The translations under genes and the position numbers were made by a program. Below are positions 54,437-62,385 of a stretch of DNA of 64,000 nucleotides, piece by piece (the stretch's first letter is position 1; each line of letters starts with the position of its first letter). Below the pieces are notes generated by a model. The model was not told the DNA's origin and did not search any database. It saw only the letters and a list, made by a program, of their open reading frames with translations. This DNA is from Methanoplanus sp. FWC-SCC4 (GTDB lineage Archaea > Halobacteriota > Methanomicrobia > Methanomicrobiales > Methanomicrobiaceae): NCBI RefSeq assembly GCF_032878975.1, contig NZ_CP043875.1, positions 558,001 to 622,000 of the forward strand, given 5' to 3'.

Positions 54437-55213
54437 TTAGACAAGTTCTTTTCCGGCATCATGAAGTTTTTCTTTTAAAATATCAATTGCATTCATCATT
54501 GCAGTAAATGCTTCCTGCCTGTGTGATGCAATTACGGCTATATATGTAACATCTTCTCCTGCGTACAATCTTCCTTTGTTATGATGGAACCTGACACCTA
54601 AAATTCCGGGGACTTTCTCCATATCAATTTTTAGTTCATTTACAAGATTGTCAATTTTCTCGTAATCATAAAAGTCCATATATTCGGTTTTTTCATCACC
54701 GGTGATTTCACGTACAATTCCGTTGAATGATAGTATGGCCCCGGCTTTTGAAATGTCAGTGTTGTTTTTCAGATTTTTTATTATCCCCTGCATGGTGAAA
54801 TAATCATCAAAATTATCAAGGGAATTAATGACTGTATTAACATCCGGGTCACGAAGGATGCAGTTTTCTGCCTCAAGATCTCCTTTGATAATTTTCTTAA
54901 ATCCTTCTGTTTTAAATCCTTCAATGATTGTATATTCCATTCCGGAGTCTGAGAGGAAGTCCAGCATGTCTGATAATTTTCCGTTACGTATAGCAACCAT
55001 TGCTTTTTCTGCATCAATCCCGGCAACATATGCTGCTCCGTGTTCATAATGTGTGGATGTATCTTTATCGGAAACCTGATCATAAATGTGGTGACCGAGA
55101 TGTTTTATTACTCCAACTTTTCCCGGAAACATTACCGTCATTTTGTCAAGAAGCTGGTGTATGAACAGGGTTTTTCCGGAATTTGAGGTTCCTGCAACGT
55201 GTATTATTTTCAT
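54437..55213 (-). CDS. Bifunctional MobB-MoaE fusion
   Basis: Residues 1 to about 150 are MobB-like: P-loop GTSNSGKT (8-15), then IKHLGHH and DTSTHYEHGA. The rest (about 155-258) is MoaE-like, the large subunit of molybdopterin synthase: GAILSFNGIVRE, VRFHHNKGRLYAGEDVTYIAVIASHRQEAFTA. The C-terminal IWKKE segment of MoaE reads LKEKLHDAGKELV, so one catalytic lysine may be shifted. Such fusions are known in archaea. The start overlaps the DUF5806 stop by 4 nt. Confidence 0.85.
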   Translation of the reverse strand: MKIIHVAGTSNSGKTLFIHQLLDKMTVMFPGKVGVIKHLGHHIYDQVSDKDTSTHYEHGAAYVAGIDAEKAMVAIRNGKLSDMLDFLSDSGMEYTIIEGFKTEGFKKIIKGDLEAENCILRDPDVNTVINSLDNFDDYFTMQGIIKNLKNNTDISKAGAILSFNGIVREITGDEKTEYMDFYDYEKIDNLVNELKIDMEKVPGILGVRFHHNKGRLYAGEDVTYIAVIASHRQEAFTAMMNAIDILKEKLHDAGKELV

Positions 55214-55956
55214 ATTATTGTCTCCTGGTTTTGGATTTCATCTTCACTTTTGTCATTTTTTGTATTTCTGAGCATTGAGGCTGCTTCTGCAACACTTCGC
55301 ATAATTTCAGTAATTCTGTCTTCGATGTCTATTTCATCGTCGATATCAACTGATGTACCTTCGACTTCCAGAAGAAATCTGGCAATTTCACTTGATTCAA
55401 AAAGAATGTCGTCCAGTTCATCGGCAGTGAAGAAACCACATAGTGCTCCGTAAAAAAAAGAAGCCCCTGATTTTTTTACTTTTTTCTTGAATGAGCTTCT
55501 TGCCTGATTAACGGCCTGTGGCGTGTAAGTATCTGTCATGAAAGGAACTAAATCCGGCAGGTTTTCTCCGATGAATGTCATTTCAGATCCGCTTCTCGTG
55601 GTAAAGTCGGCACAGAGCCGTGCAATTGCCCATTCTCTTGCTGTTATGTAGGTGTGTTTTCTTAAAAATTTGTTAACCCTTTCGTATGCAGCGCCGTCGA
55701 CTTTTTTGAATTTCTTGTATTTATTTATCCTTTCTTTTTCTTCTTTTGTGAGAAGTCTTGGCTGTGGTGCTACGATGTGGGTTTGTCCCTCTTCTTTAAT
55801 TATTGGAGTATTTGGTGATGCTGAAGATTCATTTGGATTGTCGCTTTTAGTTTTATTTTCAGAATCATTGTTTTCCTGTTGTATGGGAAGATCTGTGTCT
55901 TTAATTTCTAAATTCTGATCCTGATATTCTTCAGTTTCTTCATTTGGTTCATCCAT
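55210..55956 (-). CDS. DUF5806 protein
   Basis: A 248-residue protein. An acidic, low-complexity N-terminus (1 to about 65, rich in Glu/Asn/Ser) precedes the conserved core YKKFKKVDGAAYERVNKFLRKHTYITAREWAIARLCADF, then GENLPDLVPFMTDTYTPQAVNQARSSFKKKVKKSGASFFYGALCGFFTADELDD. The family occurs in Methanomicrobiales and haloarchaea; function unknown. A DNA-binding role is a guess. GGAGGAT precedes the ATG. It overlaps the MobB-MoaE gene and shares its promoter. Confidence 0.8.
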   Translation of the reverse strand: MDEPNEETEEYQDQNLEIKDTDLPIQQENNDSENKTKSDNPNESSASPNTPIIKEEGQTHIVAPQPRLLTKEEKERINKYKKFKKVDGAAYERVNKFLRKHTYITAREWAIARLCADFTTRSGSEMTFIGENLPDLVPFMTDTYTPQAVNQARSSFKKKVKKSGASFFYGALCGFFTADELDDILFESSEIARFLLEVEGTSVDIDDEIDIEDRITEIMRSVAEAASMLRNTKNDKSEDEIQNQETII

Positions 55957-57505
55957 GTATTGTTTAATCCTCCGTTTTTTGTCAATTAAAAATTTGTGTT
56001 AAATAAATCATCAATATTTTTTAATATGGTAGATTGGGCGAATTAGTGATATTTTCCATTAATCAATTCCGTTATTTTTGATTTATAATCATAAGGAACC
56101 ATTTCAGATTATACTTGAAAACCTCTTATCTAACATATAGCATCATATAGTTTATAGAATTTATGAAATGAGTTACTGACATCTGATAATTTGTCCAATC
56201 CGAAAAATAATATAGGAAATATTCCCGATTCATTCAAATTTAAGAAAATTTACTGGTTGTTCTGCTTGAAACTTGGAGAAAAATATTGGCGCAATTTTTT
56301 TTGTATGGATTTAGATAAACTGATTGTTAGGGATTTTATTTTTCATATTTGCATGAGAGATTTATTGAAAAATTAACTCTGTGGGAGAATTTCAAAGAAT
56401 TAAAAATAGAAAACCGGATAATTATTTAACTATTCAATCTAATCCGTAAAATCGTATTATTGTCGATTAAGTTCTGATAAAAGTATTATATAAATTCTTT
56501 AACCAAATAATTCAAAAGATAAATTGGCGGAATTCAGATTAAATTTTATCAAAAGAAGATTGTTAATCTTTTAAAAATATAATGGGATATCTTTTGATCT
56601 TTTGAAAAATATCCTGGAAGTGTTGTAATATTTATCTATATTAAATTCTTAAATTTTTTCAACTGAAACAAAATATTCTAATCCCCTATTTATCTAAATT
56701 TCCGAAATTAGCATTGAATAATTATTTTTTAAGTAAGTAATTCTCCCTGTTAAAAACATAAATCTGGATTTCTGATGTTAAAATTAAATTTCATCTGGAA
56801 ATTCGTTATAATCCAATACGGATTTGTATTTTAAAAAGAAGCAGATTTAAAATATTAATGAGTACATTTCTTTGACCTGGGTCTAAAATAATTCATGAAT
56901 GTACCAGGGATAACTGTGGGCATAATCTGTAATTTTTGTTCATAGATTTAAATTTAAGATTTTCTCTCAAAAAATCCTGTGGAGATAATTAATGATTATA
57001 TGATAATATATACAAAAAAATTGTAGGAACTTGCGTTTTTGGATGAAATTTTGACAGATTATTGAAATTTTGAAAATGAATAAATTTTTTTTGTTTTAAA
57101 CAGATTTTTATTATGAAGAATTAATATGTCAATTTTGAAAATTTGATTTTAATTAAGAAAAACACTATTTGGGATAATTTCCATAAAAAATTAAATTGAA
57201 ATCTCTTTTTTAGGAATTATAATATTATTTTCCTTTGAATGAAGCTACTAATTTACGCTGATAAAAAAAGAGATATGATATGCCTGCGCTGTTCTTTTTG
57301 TTTAGATGGTGATGTTATGGACTATTTTTGAAAAAAACATCTATTATGGGTCTTAATTAAGAGCCTGTATTTTGATGATTGGGATAAAATGGATACGCGG
57401 TAGGATTAGAATGAATGACGCCATAGATTGCTGATATGGCACTTTTAAAAATAATTAATATTTATCTGATAATTTTTGAACCTGCTCAAAAATATGGATT
57501 TTAAA
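55957..57505. other. 1.55-kb AT-rich gene-free spacer left of xerA
   Basis: Roughly 28% GC by eye, with stops in all frames. The longest reading frames are a 61-residue TTG frame (56191-56376) and a 31-residue frame (57239-57334), neither convincing. Contains the motif copy at 56130-56156, a short CTTAATTAAG palindrome (57352-57361) and a hairpin GCCATA/TATGGC (57420-57440) just past the xerA 3' end. No RNA gene, IS or CRISPR recognised. Confidence 0.6.
56130..56156 (-). repeat. Inverted-repeat copy 1 / motif upstream of the DUF5806 operon
   Basis: A 23-nt core (56134-56156, plus strand CATATAGCATC then ATATAGTTTATA) matches the reverse complement of 59565-59587 at 22 of 23 positions. Read towards the DUF5806 gene it is TATAAACT followed by GATGCTATATGTTAG, about 175 nt before the start codon. 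Confidence 0.6.
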
Positions 57506-58423
57506 TTAATTTTTGTTATTATCTGACAGGGGGAAATATTGCTGGTAAACCTGTTTTCTTTCATCAAGGTCGGTATGAAGATAAATTTCGGTAGTCTGTA
57601 TTGAACTATGGCCCAGATTTTCCTGAACGACGCGGAGATTTTTTGACCTTTTGTATAGTTCACTGGCATAACTGTGTCTTATTTTATGGGGTGTTATTCC
57701 ATCAGGTGCATATTTTTTGAACAAATGCTGAACTGTTCTTGGAGATATATGCTTTCCCAGCTGCCCTTTGAAAAGAGGTCCTTCTATTTCCCCGGCTGTA
57801 AATTCATCGATCTCTTTTAATGTTTCATCATCTATGAAAACAGTTCTGATTTTGCCTCCTTTTCCTTTAACTCTTATCGTACGATCTTCATAGTCAATAT
57901 CTCCCAGATTTATTGAGCAGAGTTCTGAAACACGGACTCCTGTTGAATATATTGTCCGAAAAATCAGTCTGTCTCTTTTGTCCTGAATTGAATTCAGGAG
58001 TTTTATAACCTGGTTGTGTTTTAGGTATTTTAGCTCTTTTTCCTTTATCTTGGGCCTGTCTATTGCAAGCATGGGGTTGACTTCAATTATTTCCTGTGTG
58101 TAGCAGTAACGGTAAAAAGAGCTTAATGATGAGATAATCCTTTGCAGGGTGGCTGGTTTGTATTTTCTTGTGGATGAGAGAAATAGAAGAAAATCATTTA
58201 TCATTATGGGGGTAGTTTCAATTTCTGTGTCCATTCTTGCCTGTGAAAGATCACACCAGTACATTGAAATTTTTTCTTCTTCGACATTTCTTTTGATCCA
58301 GACATAATAAGCAAATTTCTGAATTACATTTTCATAACTCTGGATTGTTCTTTGAGAATAATTTCTCATATTGAGGTAGTGACTAAAGCGTTTTTGCCAT
58401 TCAGAAAAATAAGCTCCATGCAT
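57506..58423 (-). CDS. xerA: Tyrosine recombinase (XerA family)
   Basis: Site-specific recombinase, about 305 residues. An N-terminal SAM-like core-binding domain is followed by the catalytic domain with the R-K-H-R-H-Y set: GVRVSEL, VKGKGGKIR, HKIRHSYASELY, LGHSSIQ and TEIYLHT. Archaeal XerA resolves chromosome dimers at dif; an element integrase is the alternative. I chose ATG 58423: a TATTTAAAT box is centred about 25 nt upstream, giving a leaderless mRNA. A TTG at 58483 would lie inside the palindrome. It is the only gene in about 3.8 kb. Confidence 0.88.
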   Translation of the reverse strand: MHGAYFSEWQKRFSHYLNMRNYSQRTIQSYENVIQKFAYYVWIKRNVEEEKISMYWCDLSQARMDTEIETTPIMINDFLLFLSSTRKYKPATLQRIISSLSSFYRYCYTQEIIEVNPMLAIDRPKIKEKELKYLKHNQVIKLLNSIQDKRDRLIFRTIYSTGVRVSELCSINLGDIDYEDRTIRVKGKGGKIRTVFIDDETLKEIDEFTAGEIEGPLFKGQLGKHISPRTVQHLFKKYAPDGITPHKIRHSYASELYKRSKNLRVVQENLGHSSIQTTEIYLHTDLDERKQVYQQYFPLSDNNKN

Positions 58424-58440
58424 ACTTATTTTATTGATAT

Positions 58441-58455
58441 CTCTATTTAAATAAC
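58441..58455 (-). promoter_or_regulatory. xerA TATA box
   Basis: On the minus strand GTTATTTAAATAGAG; the TATTTAAAT core is about 25 nt upstream of ATG 58423, fitting a leaderless transcript. The palindrome at 58456-58485 abuts its BRE side. Confidence 0.5.
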
Positions 58456-58485
58456 TTTTGCGTAGAATATACATTCTGCGCAAAA
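58456..58485. promoter_or_regulatory. 30-bp near-perfect palindrome upstream of xerA
   Basis: TTTTGCGTAGAAT (58456-58468), spacer ATAC, ATTCTGCGCAAAA (58473-58485): the arms match at 12 of 13 positions. It can be extended by AAC/GTTT with one indel. The 13-4-13 (or 11-8-11) layout is that of a recombinase or repressor dimer site. Candidates: Xer/dif-like core site, or an autoregulatory operator. Confidence 0.6.
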
Positions 58486-59745
58486 AGTTTCATGGGCTGG
58501 TCTGAATGTAAAAAATTCGGGATTGATATGGTTTGCAAAAAATTTGGAAAATTTCTATTGATGCAGATTATGCTTTTCGGATTTTTTTTGATTTGCTAAT
58601 TGTGATAATGGGAGAGTCTGCCGGTGTCGGGCATCCCAAATTTCTTTTCACTTTTTTTGGATTCATGTTTTTACAATTTTTCTGAAGAACCGGATGCAGT
58701 TACTTTTCTACTAAAGCAGATTTTTTTAATTTAATTTTGGTGGGTATCATAAATATTCAAATAAGAAACATATGTTATACTGCCTGGTTGCTTTAATCTA
58801 TTAAATGAAAAAAATATGGGTGCATTATTCTTATTTGGTAAATGTAATTTATTTTAGAAATCATGTTGGGGAGATAACCTGATTTAAAAACTTTAGTAAA
58901 TATCTGCAATATATGCAATAATTTATCATCAAAACCCGCTGCTTTAATCATTTGTAAAATTATTGATATTCAATAATTATTATTCCTCTTAATTAAGTCA
59001 ATGAGCAGAATCAAAGCAATTTATTATGTAGGATTTGGAAATACTTATTGGGCGTATTCTTCACTCTTAAAACAAATTTTTTGAAAAACTAGTATTTTTA
59101 TAAGAATAATTGTAATATTTGAAAATATAATCTGCCCGGGTGAATTCCTAAGGAAGTTGTGTATATCATTAACAATCTCTAAAAAATTGCTCATTTTAAA
59201 AAATATCATAACTGTATTAATCCTATAAAGGCAGTCTATTTTACAGTATTTCAAAAGTTACGAAAATCCTTGGAAGACAATGGCAAATTGTGAATTTACT
59301 GTCAGAATATTTTAATGTGTTCTATTGGGCTGTAATAAAATATCCTGCTGTTATGTTTAATTTTATACTCAACAAAATTGTCTTTGGATTGGTTGCTTTA
59401 AAAATCATAGAGAATTTATCAGATTGTTTCTTTCTTTTATTTAATTTGGTTTTTGGAATTTTAGAAGAATCTTGTGCTGAATAATTGTTGTTTAATGAAG
59501 CCGGATTTTTATTAATTATCGAAATTTTCTTTTTTTAATTGTCAATATTTAAATTTATAATTCATATAAACTGTATGATGCTATATGGATCGGTGGTTGC
59601 GTGGCAGTCCAATTTCATGAACCTGATTATCCAAAAAGATCTGCATTAAAAAAGCCTGATAGCATTATTTGGTTTATTGAGAATTTTCAATATGTGCACT
59701 CTTAAAAAACCATATTGCTTAGGGTAACAAATAGTTAATACAGAA
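58486..59745. other. 1.26-kb AT-rich gene-free spacer right of xerA
   Basis: No convincing gene; a 64-residue hydrophobic GTG frame (59290-59484) has no ribosome site or recognised similarity. It includes a second CTTAATTAAG (58988-58997), motif copy 2 (59565-59587) and, directly after it, a short GC-rich patch (59587-59615) that stands out. The last 160 nt form the mutS leader or promoter. Confidence 0.6.
59565..59587 (+). repeat. Inverted-repeat copy 2 / motif upstream of mutS-mutL
   Basis: TATAAACTGTATGATG then CTATATG, the inverted partner of 56134-56156 (22 of 23). Read towards mutS it lies about 160 nt before the start. Preceded by TTCA, which makes partial dyad symmetry (CATATA ... 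TATATG). Confidence 0.6.
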
Positions 59746-62385
59746 ATGAATAAAGGACCCACGCCCGCAATGCGGCAGTTTTACGAGATGAAAGAGCGTT
59801 ATCCGGGAACTGTTCTCTTTTTCCAGATGGGTGATTTTTATGAAACATTTGGAGAAGACGCAGAGGTTGTTTCACGTGAACTCGACATAACCCTTACTTC
59901 AAGAGGAAGAGATTCAAAAGGCGAAAAAATGCCTCTTGCAGGTGTGCCCATTCATGCCGGAGATTTGTATATCTCAAGACTTGTCAAAAAGGGTTACAGG
60001 GTTGCGGTATGTGACCAGGTTGAAGATCCAAAGAAAGCAAAAGGTGTGGTTAAGAGGGATGTTGTTCGTGTAATCACACCCGGAACTGTAATAGATTCTG
60101 AAATGCTGGGGACAAACGGTCCTTCATATCTTATGTCGGTTATATACGACAAAAAAAGAAAAGAATATGGAATTTCATTTCTGGATATATCCACCGGAGA
60201 ATTTTTCATATCTTTAGCTGATGCGGGATGTGGTTTTGTTGATCTGAATTCAGAAATTGCGAAGAATAATCCTTCCGAATGCATTGTTCCTTCCAACAGT
60301 CCGTATGAATTGATTGAAAATATCAAAAACAAAAATGTCCTTGTAACGACTTTCAGGGACAGTGCATATGATTTAGACTATGCATCATCAAGTCTTAAAA
60401 ATCATTTTGGTGTAAATTCACTTGAAGGATATGGATGCATCGGAATGGATAATTCAGTCCGCGCTGCCGGTGCCTGTCTGTCTTATGCCTGTGAAACGCA
60501 GATGACAGGTCTTGATCATATCAGGACTCTATCGACAAAACTCCCCTCAAAAAATATGGTTCTTGATGCAATCACACTAAGGAACCTTGAAGTTTTGGAA
60601 AACATAAGAAGCCGTGGAAGTGACACTTCATTGTACGGGGTCTTAAACGGAACAAAGACACCCATGGGGAACAGAATATTAAGATCATTTATTTCAGGTC
60701 CTCTTATTGAAAAGGAAGATATTGACAAAAGACTTGATGCAGTAGAATTTTTTGTAAACCAGCCTCTGCTTCGCTCCAATCTGAGGTCATATCTTGAAAA
60801 ATATTCTGATATTGAAAGAATTGCCGGAAGAATATCATATGGAAATGCAGGCCCCCGTGATCTTGTAACACTGAAAAACTCACTTGAGAAAATTCCCCTC
60901 ATAAAATCTATTTTTTCGGCAGATGATACGCTAAATATTCCTGAGAATCTCTCAGACGTGCTGATGGGAATTGACGGAATGAAGAGTTTTGCAGCCCTTA
61001 TTGAAAGTGCCATTGTTGACGATCCTCCGGTTCTCGCAAAAAACGGAGGAGTAATTCGTGAGGGTTATGATGAAGGGCTTGATGAACTCCGTTACATTGC
61101 AACATCCGGGAAGGACTGGATTGCGGACTTTCAGCAAAGAGAAAGGGAAAGAACCGGAATAAAATCACTGAAAGTCGGATATAACAAAGTTTTTGGATAT
61201 TTCATAGAAGTCACAAAATCAAATTTAAACCTTGTTCCTCCTGAATATCAGCGAAAACAGACAATGTCAAACGGTGAACGATATACTCTTCTAATACTTC
61301 AGGAAAAAGAGTCCTTAATTGCAAATGCCGAAGAGAAACTTTTAGCTATTGAATATGACTTATTTAAAGATCTCATTTTTAAACTGAAAGAACAGGTGGA
61401 AATACTTCAAAAGACTGCAAGAAACATCGGTCTTCTTGATGTATATGCAAATATGGGTGACATTGCCCACAGTCAGAATTATGTACGGCCCGTTATCGAA
61501 AATTCAAAGAGACTTCTGGTCAGCAATGGCAGGCATCCCGTTGTTGAAAGAAGTCTCTTAGACAGTTTTGTGCCTAATGATGCAGATATTGATGCTTCCG
61601 GGAATCAGATTTTGATAATAACCGGTGCAAATATGGCGGGAAAGTCCACCTACATGCGAGAGATTGCACTTATTTGTATTATGTCGCAGATGGGAAGTTT
61701 TGTTCCTGCTGATAGTGCGGTTGTAGGGATTGTCGATCGTATATTCACCCGTGTCGGAGCTTTCGATGACCTTGCAAGTGGTCAGAGTACTTTTATGGTT
61801 GAGATGATTGAGCTTGCAAATATTCTCAACAATGTCACAGACAAAAGCCTCGTAATATTGGATGAGATTGGAAGGGGAACAAGTACTCTTGACGGTTACT
61901 CCATTGCAAAATCTGTACTGGAATTTCTTCACGGTAAAGGTGCAACTGGTCCAAGAACTCTGTTTGCAACACATTTCCATGAAATGGTTGACATTGAAAC
62001 TGAACTGAAGAGAGCAAGGAACTACCATTTTGCGGTAAAAGATACCGGTAATGATGTTGTATTTTTAAGAAAACTCATTCCGGGAGCAACCGATAAAAGT
62101 TATGGTATACACGTTGCAAGACTTGCAGGAATCCCTAAAAAAGTAATTGAAAGGTCTGAGTTAATCCTGAAGGAAGAACAGGATAAACAATATAATGATG
62201 GAAACGGTAAAAAACAACCCCGTTATACCCAGATGCTTTTGATAGATTCACCAAAACCGGTTGATCCACCTAAAAGGGATGATCCTGTAATTAAAAAGAT
62301 AGAAGGAATTGATATTGATTCCATGTCTCCCCGTGAGGCTCTTACATTTCTTTACGGTTTAAAAAATGATTTAGAGGGGGATTAA
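59746..62385 (+). CDS. mutS: DNA mismatch repair protein MutS (MutS1)
   Basis: Mismatch-recognition ATPase of 879 residues. The mismatch-reading motif GDFYETF is at 29-35 (F31, E33). The clamp and lever domains are followed by Walker A TGANMAGKST (626-635), Walker B VILDEIGRGTST and the His of FATHFHEM. It is a full-length bacterial-type MutS1; among archaea only some groups, including Methanosarcina and relatives, have mutSL, which were probably acquired from bacteria. mutL begins 4 nt after its stop. Confidence 0.95.
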   Translation: MNKGPTPAMRQFYEMKERYPGTVLFFQMGDFYETFGEDAEVVSRELDITLTSRGRDSKGEKMPLAGVPIHAGDLYISRLVKKGYRVAVCDQVEDPKKAKGVVKRDVVRVITPGTVIDSEMLGTNGPSYLMSVIYDKKRKEYGISFLDISTGEFFISLADAGCGFVDLNSEIAKNNPSECIVPSNSPYELIENIKNKNVLVTTFRDSAYDLDYASSSLKNHFGVNSLEGYGCIGMDNSVRAAGACLSYACETQMTGLDHIRTLSTKLPSKNMVLDAITLRNLEVLENIRSRGSDTSLYGVLNGTKTPMGNRILRSFISGPLIEKEDIDKRLDAVEFFVNQPLLRSNLRSYLEKYSDIERIAGRISYGNAGPRDLVTLKNSLEKIPLIKSIFSADDTLNIPENLSDVLMGIDGMKSFAALIESAIVDDPPVLAKNGGVIREGYDEGLDELRYIATSGKDWIADFQQRERERTGIKSLKVGYNKVFGYFIEVTKSNLNLVPPEYQRKQTMSNGERYTLLILQEKESLIANAEEKLLAIEYDLFKDLIFKLKEQVEILQKTARNIGLLDVYANMGDIAHSQNYVRPVIENSKRLLVSNGRHPVVERSLLDSFVPNDADIDASGNQILIITGANMAGKSTYMREIALICIMSQMGSFVPADSAVVGIVDRIFTRVGAFDDLASGQSTFMVEMIELANILNNVTDKSLVILDEIGRGTSTLDGYSIAKSVLEFLHGKGATGPRTLFATHFHEMVDIETELKRARNYHFAVKDTGNDVVFLRKLIPGATDKSYGIHVARLAGIPKKVIERSELILKEEQDKQYNDGNGKKQPRYTQMLLIDSPKPVDPPKRDDPVIKKIEGIDIDSMSPREALTFLYGLKNDLEGD

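Follow-up and report, generated by a model that had tools for sequence, protein, structure and literature searches.

As far as the accessible parts of the relevant papers go, the reaction of XerA at dif, the 11-6-11 organisation of the site and the linkage of recombinase and site in modules are already known (PMC2958812, PMC5357621, PMC2731167), and chromosome dimers of archaea are resolved without FtsK (PMC2958812). In the Thermococcales, with Pyrococcus abyssi as the example, dif is described as a 28-bp sequence of the 11-6-11 type which is unique in each genome, is served by a single recombinase and lies 122–142 degrees from oriC rather than at 180 degrees; according to the excerpts of that study it is situated apart from xerA and has immediate conserved flanks (PMC2958812). 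The same excerpts state that distance of dif from oriC is not a rule in the Sulfolobales, where Cortez et al. placed dif close to xerA in contrast to the Euryarchaeota, and the flank which they describe there is one-sided and 13 bp long, with no mention of a mirrored pair (PMC2958812). Linked modules of recombinase and site were attributed to some archaea in the available portion of a later review (PMC5357621). In bacteria, the genes of XerS and XerH likewise form linked modules with their sites difSL and difH. These involve other recombinases, difSL has 31 bp with an 11-bp centre, and a fixed overlap with the promoter is not mentioned in the accessible passages (PMC5357621, PMC2731167). A further system to be considered is Ter/Tus, in which polar sites are mirrored around dif and additional copies are mostly of equal polarity. 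Archaea are without known Ter sites according to the accessible part of a 2020 review (PMC7776575).

The locus presented here is contained in a window of 64,000 nucleotides, the whole stretch of DNA that was analysed, from the genome of Methanoplanus sp. FWC-SCC4 (G000), a member of the Methanomicrobiales. As in the Thermococcales, a 28-bp site of the 11-6-11 type which is unique in the genome is combined with a single recombinase, and the site is found 115 degrees from orc1-1, which served as proxy for oriC in all angle measurements, in G000 and 121 degrees in a second genome (G001). Unlike in the Thermococcales, the site is part of the xerA promoter and the innermost of the conserved elements that accompany it are 0.5–10 kb off, and in contrast to the Sulfolobales these elements form a mirrored pair and belong to a euryarchaeal order. 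The features are compiled in Table 1.

Table 1. Features of the dif-xerA locus, in coordinates of the window
Feature	Position	Strand	Remarks	Basis
xerA, archaeal chromosome-dimer resolvase	57506..58423	-	305 aa from ATG at 58423	NCBIfam NF040815, Pfam Phage_integrase
TATA-like box of xerA promoter, TATTTAAATA	58444..58453	-		sequence; alignment of 15 upstream regions
dif-like candidate XerA site, 11-6-11	58457..58484		arms 58457-58467 (proximal to xerA) and 58474-58484; spacer 58468-58473	sequence, conservation upstream of xerA, single copy
Left polar element, TATAAACTATATGATGCTATAT	56135..56156	-	points away from dif	
Right polar element, TATAAACTGTATGATGCTATAT	59565..59586	+	points away from dif	
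Weak convergent partner of right element	59657..59677	-	91 bp away, 4 mismatches	
DUF5806 gene	55210..55956	-	beyond left element; often adjoins the locus at one side	Pfam PF19122
mutS	59746..62385	+	beyond right element here; other neighbours in some relatives	Pfam

The protein encoded by xerA was recognised at equivalog level by the recomb_XerA_Arch profile NF040815 (274.9 bits, cut-off 220). Upstream of the gene lies the 30-bp palindrome TTTTGCGTAGAAT-ATAC-ATTCTGCGCAAAA (58456-58485), and its two 13-nt arms match at 12 of 13 positions, exactly as reported in the preliminary description of this DNA. It is best read as the 28-bp sequence TTTGCGTAGAA TATACA TTCTGCGCAAA. The earlier suggestion of a Xer core site is supported by the conservation described below, while its 11-8-11 spacing has to be replaced by 11-6-11 with a 6-bp centre; the arms would allow the longer spacing, but published dif sites favour the shorter. 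The features expected of a dif were found together, namely inverted arms of 11 bp on either side of a 6-bp spacer, a single copy, and a cognate XerA in the genome. The palindrome had also been described as abutting the TATA box of a leaderless promoter, and two bases were indeed found between it and the TATA-like box. Leaderless transcription of xerA is suggested by the spacing from the ATG to the TATA-like box and the palindrome, and the proximal arm would reach with its outer end into the position of the BRE. On the other side, an AT-rich intergenic stretch (58490-59740, 27% G+C) separates the site from mutS, and no convincing gene was found when this stretch was read for genes. With 36% G+C the palindrome is richer in G and C than this intergenic DNA, as had been noted before. 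A 36-bp stretch upstream of xerA (58648-58683) has a second copy of 89% identity at G000:C1:820690-820725 (L002).

By itself the palindrome is weak evidence, being only mildly unusual. Three palindromes of the 11-6-11 type with at least 10 of 11 matching positions occur in the window, whereas 30 simulated windows contained 1.4 on average. When the local 400 bp were simulated 500 times, such a palindrome appeared in 7 cases. It is single-copy in the 2.31-Mb genome when up to three mismatches are allowed, and it was not among the repeats listed by a repeat search at default settings. A chance origin is ruled out by the conservation of the palindrome upstream of xerA in relatives and not by the statistics of the window.

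For this comparison 60 genomes were searched for XerA, which yielded a match in 56 and none in four. The upstream regions were inspected in 30 and then in 49 loci, each from a different genome among the 56 with a match and including that of G000. In 45 of the 49 a dif-like palindrome immediately precedes xerA, the best-scoring site near each gene being counted without a score threshold, and the conservation upstream of xerA orthologues which the preliminary description had envisaged was thus found. The distance from palindrome to start codon is 33 nt in 41 of the 45 loci, 32 nt in two, and 40 and 44 nt in one each. The weakest of the 45, on a short contig of the draft genome G014, agrees with the consensus at 15 of 24 positions and has a shortened centre. 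A search of the 60 genomes with the consensus, allowing up to three mismatches, gave a match in 36, at one place each, and none with the reversed pattern as control; among the 24 genomes without such a match are several families with diverged arms. Across relatives the arms are kept and the centre is variable, a pattern likewise given for bacterial dif in the accessible part of PMC2731167.

The dif sequence of E. coli, taken from a table in the accessible part of PMC2731167, served as the reference for dif likeness, which was thus judged against E. coli letters and not against published archaeal ones. A stretch of 20 bp in G047 is identical to E. coli dif at 19 positions, and two more loci reach 18 of 20, as compared to a best background match of 16 in 400 kb of the G000 genome. 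The site in the window agrees at 19 of 28 positions, the next best place in the window at 18, and three positions at 19 were found in 464 kb. No viral contig of IMG/VR contained the exact dif core pattern. Outside the order, 32 genomes were examined, and the best locus was inspected in each of the four with a XerA above the cut-off. One of them (G503, L215) has a perfect 11-6-11 palindrome, ACTGCGTATAA GATACA TTATACGCAGT, whose first base is 11 bp upstream of the point where the xerA frame opens. In another (G239) a palindrome precedes the frame by about 125 bp, and none was found at the best xerA loci of G253 and G254. Because two of the four have the palindrome and two do not, the linkage of dif and xerA may extend beyond the Methanomicrobiales, yet it is not general.

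Another finding, absent from the preliminary description, was a second conserved sequence, TATAAACYRTATGATGCTATAT, which was noticed between dif and xerA in relatives where the two are displaced from each other. Two copies of this polar element are present in the window against a chance expectation of 0.01, and with up to two mismatches these two copies, of 21–22 bp, remain the only ones in the whole genome. In its 21-bp form it was found with up to three mismatches in 57 of the 60 genomes (two hits with the control), and with up to two mismatches in 196 of 232 genomes of the order (one with the control). In an alignment of 40 copies the conservation stops sharply after 21 bp, which suggests that the element, a non-palindromic sequence, is the site of a DNA-binding protein. 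For the analysis of polarity, the element sites of the 60-genome search were typed against 56 dif positions, 20 of which gave no consensus match and were estimated from the start of xerA. On contigs with a located dif in these 56 genomes, 119 of the 123 sites within 120 kb of dif point outward. This includes all 100 innermost elements and 19 of the 23 farther ones, a polarity resembling that of Ter sites around bacterial dif. The four sites which do not point outward are weaker convergent partners at 91-92 bp from an outward site. The window has such a partner as well, and with up to three mismatches a partner at this distance is found in G007, G013, G017, and G019. Both sides of dif are occupied in 45 of the 56 genomes, one side in 10, and none in one; the remaining 19 of the 142 typed sites have other locations or belong to contigs on which dif was not located. 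In a set of named loci which overlaps with these genomes, 34 left elements were on the minus strand and one on the plus strand, while 49 right elements were on the plus strand and none on the minus strand. In the draft genome G134 the matches listed comprise a mirrored pair around dif and four sites on contigs where dif was not seen; among these listed off-dif sites (L124, L125) there is also a mirrored pair without dif. A function of the elements as promoters of outward genes was considered as well and is unsupported at loci where the next reading frames, as mechanically called, converge.

Outside the order the element was found with up to two mismatches in 8 of 309 genomes. In seven of these eight (all but G352) the surroundings were scanned, and a gene for a tyrosine integrase is located near the site in four. 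There, single or paired near-matches adjoin the integrase genes (L114, L115, L117, L120); those around the integrase of L115 form a weak mirrored pair, and L120 also has a DUF5805. The element was matched by seven viral contigs, none of which carries dif or shows similarity to proteins of the window. In two GC-rich (0.61–0.63) viral contigs, copies of the AT-rich element lie inside long open reading frames (L308 8047-8067, L309 4671-4691).

Loci in which dif and xerA have become separated are informative for the function of both kinds of site. Four genomes of one genus have the full palindrome 657–1281 bp upstream of the XerA match but keep the half-site ATTCTGCGCAAT at the xerA promoter. In the three genomes measured, this half-site precedes the start codon by 30–32 nt; a promoter half-site is kept likewise in L191 and L193. 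In this genus, and also in L191 and L193, xerA is outside the mirrored pair of 21-bp elements and dif is inside, and the pair therefore follows dif and not xerA. The reverse situation is seen in G014, where the palindrome persists, flanked by both 21-bp elements, beside a decayed xerA which is broken in three pieces and begins 33 nt after it. The whole xerA of this genome is on another contig, which may be foreign because its G+C content differs (0.556 as compared to 0.602). As the full site can outlast its link to the promoter and the half-site can outlast the full site, we infer two functions, one as dif, which would maintain the palindrome, and one in the promoter, most simply autorepression by XerA, which would maintain the near arm. 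The operator for self-repression considered in the preliminary description thus fits the data as well as the core site does. Such a promoter role is likely since the half-site stayed in place where the full site sits 0.7–1.3 kb off. Binding of XerA to a single arm is plausible by analogy, because XerA of Pyrococcus cleaves half-site substrates in vitro, as described in the accessible part of PMC3646895.

The fixed distance of 33 nt in 41 of 45 loci and the retained half-sites could also be explained if the palindrome served only as an operator at which XerA or another repressor controls xerA, with the true dif elsewhere. This is distinctly unlikely in view of the full palindromes remote from xerA in one genus, the persistence of the site beside the decayed gene in G014, the likeness to E. 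coli dif of up to 19 of 20 positions, and the absence from the G000 genome of a second similar site at up to three mismatches. Even less credible is the view that an old transposon, or an integrated element, carried xerA and that the mirrored elements are its terminal inverted repeats. An inverted pair does surround a recombinase gene, but xerA is outside the pair in one genus, further copies are mostly of one repeated polarity, and the similarity of the aligned copies ends at 21 bp. More weight has to be given to the elements as operators of flanking genes, chiefly that of DUF5806 and possibly in the form of autoregulation, although this too is rather doubtful. DUF5806 is a highly conserved family spread over the phylum, above the cut-off in 223 of 392 sampled genomes. 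A set of loci based on it, 80 kept of 431, included Methanomicrobium, Methanoculleus, Methanogenium, Methanoregula, Methanospirillum, and Methanocorpusculum. At 56 of 73 loci with enough sequence the 900 bp that precede the DUF5806 core contain an element on its coding strand, and several Methanoregula loci have an extra copy about 105–140 bp before the core. Against the operator function, the genes on the other side of the locus vary, and after the right element in G002, G004, and G017 the next mechanically called frames run toward the element. Furthermore, DUF5806 occurs in 144 of the 309 sampled genomes outside the order but the element in eight, and 20 upstream regions from outside the order are free of it (best match with at least five mismatches). 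For DUF5806 as the protein which might bind the element, the association within the order is suggestive, and outside the order this assignment is unsupported. A sequence search for a solved relative of DUF5806 gave nothing significant (best E 0.71), and two AlphaFold2 runs yielded mean pLDDT values of 55.8 and 47.2, which are too low for a usable model.

A sharp, non-palindromic 21-bp site mirrored about dif would also suit a polar replication fork barrier, an archaeal counterpart of Ter that traps forks around dif. Besides the mirrored arrangement, this reading is favoured by the farther copies, which mostly keep their polarity (19 of 23), and by G159, where the matches listed include, at one side of dif, four copies on the plus strand within 160 kb. 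It was nevertheless judged unlikely from the replication context. As plain GC skew around dif was ambiguous, strand-balanced skew at third codon positions (GC3) was calculated from sampled stretches. In G000 it shows an origin-type switch near orc1-1 (2.19 Mb) and the other switch at 0.97–1.08 Mb, while its sign is equal on both sides of dif at 0.616 Mb, and the earlier idea that the skew shift point might lie at the palindrome has to be abandoned. In G001 the sign is unchanged across dif as well, with a similar offset (switches 0.3–0.5 Mb away); the switches of G005 are 0.1–0.3 Mb from dif, and the profile of G041 is flat. The GC-skew switch at the site which marks a dif of the bacterial type is thus absent in G000 and G001, and a strict fork trap is disfavoured because the GC3 skew does not switch at dif. 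In 17 genomes, three of them with two contigs, dif was found 42–170 degrees from orc1-1 and not at 180 degrees (above 90 degrees in 15, 86 and 42 degrees in the others). Of 17 complete or near-complete genomes, 11 have a second orc1/cdc6 gene, orc1-2, at a distance of about 43–106 kb from dif; this proximity, within about 110 kb, likewise weighs against a fork trap. In contrast to the Ter/Tus system, no member of the Tus family (PF05472, cut-off 22) was found above the cut-off in 40 genomes, the only sub-threshold match being one of 19.5 bits in G038, whereas the E. coli control was found. The opposite view, that the locus is a replication origin with the mirrored elements as origin-recognition boxes, draws on the bracketing of an AT-rich intergenic stretch by polar sites. 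It is very improbable, as the skew does not switch at the locus, the switch of origin type in G000 is near orc1-1, and the element is present in G000 at dif only and absent at orc1-1.

The palindrome is therefore very probably the site where XerA resolves joined chromosomes, placed inside the promoter of its own gene. The wider reading from the sequence data, which combines a chromosomal dif, autorepression of xerA, and a mirrored pair organising or delimiting the dif region, is considered likely as a whole. XerA would bind in the form of monomers to the 11-bp arms, and strand exchange at both edges of the 6-bp spacer would convert chromosome dimers back to monomers. On the near arm XerA should also block transcription of xerA, and such autorepression is expected because the site is fixed at 33 nt from the start codon, against the TATA/BRE region. 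The outward pair of 21-bp elements would be bound by some DNA-binding protein which marks the dif region and most likely organises or delimits it, so that resolution would occur in the right place. This organising or delimiting role, to which regulation of DUF5806 may be added as a side role, is favoured because the skew, the Tus result, and the element-free DUF5806 regions outside the order disfavour the alternatives. A hitherto undescribed terminus-marking system of the Methanomicrobiales may tentatively be proposed as well, in which a protein reads the outward sites and in this way directs replication forks, guides a DNA translocase or shapes the folding of the chromosome around dif.

As far as the open-access literature reaches, the linkage of dif and xerA across the sampled families of a euryarchaeal order, with the exception of the genus with displaced sites, is new, as is the near-constant coupling of dif to the xerA promoter at 33 nt; the mirrored outward elements are apparently undescribed in that literature. 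With these results a candidate dif is supplied for an order of methanogens. How XerA is confined to the right place and time becomes testable by means of the overlap of dif with the promoter and the mirrored sites, and a terminus-marking system, if true, would give the archaea, which are said to have neither Ter/Tus nor guidance by FtsK, a functional counterpart of one or the other.
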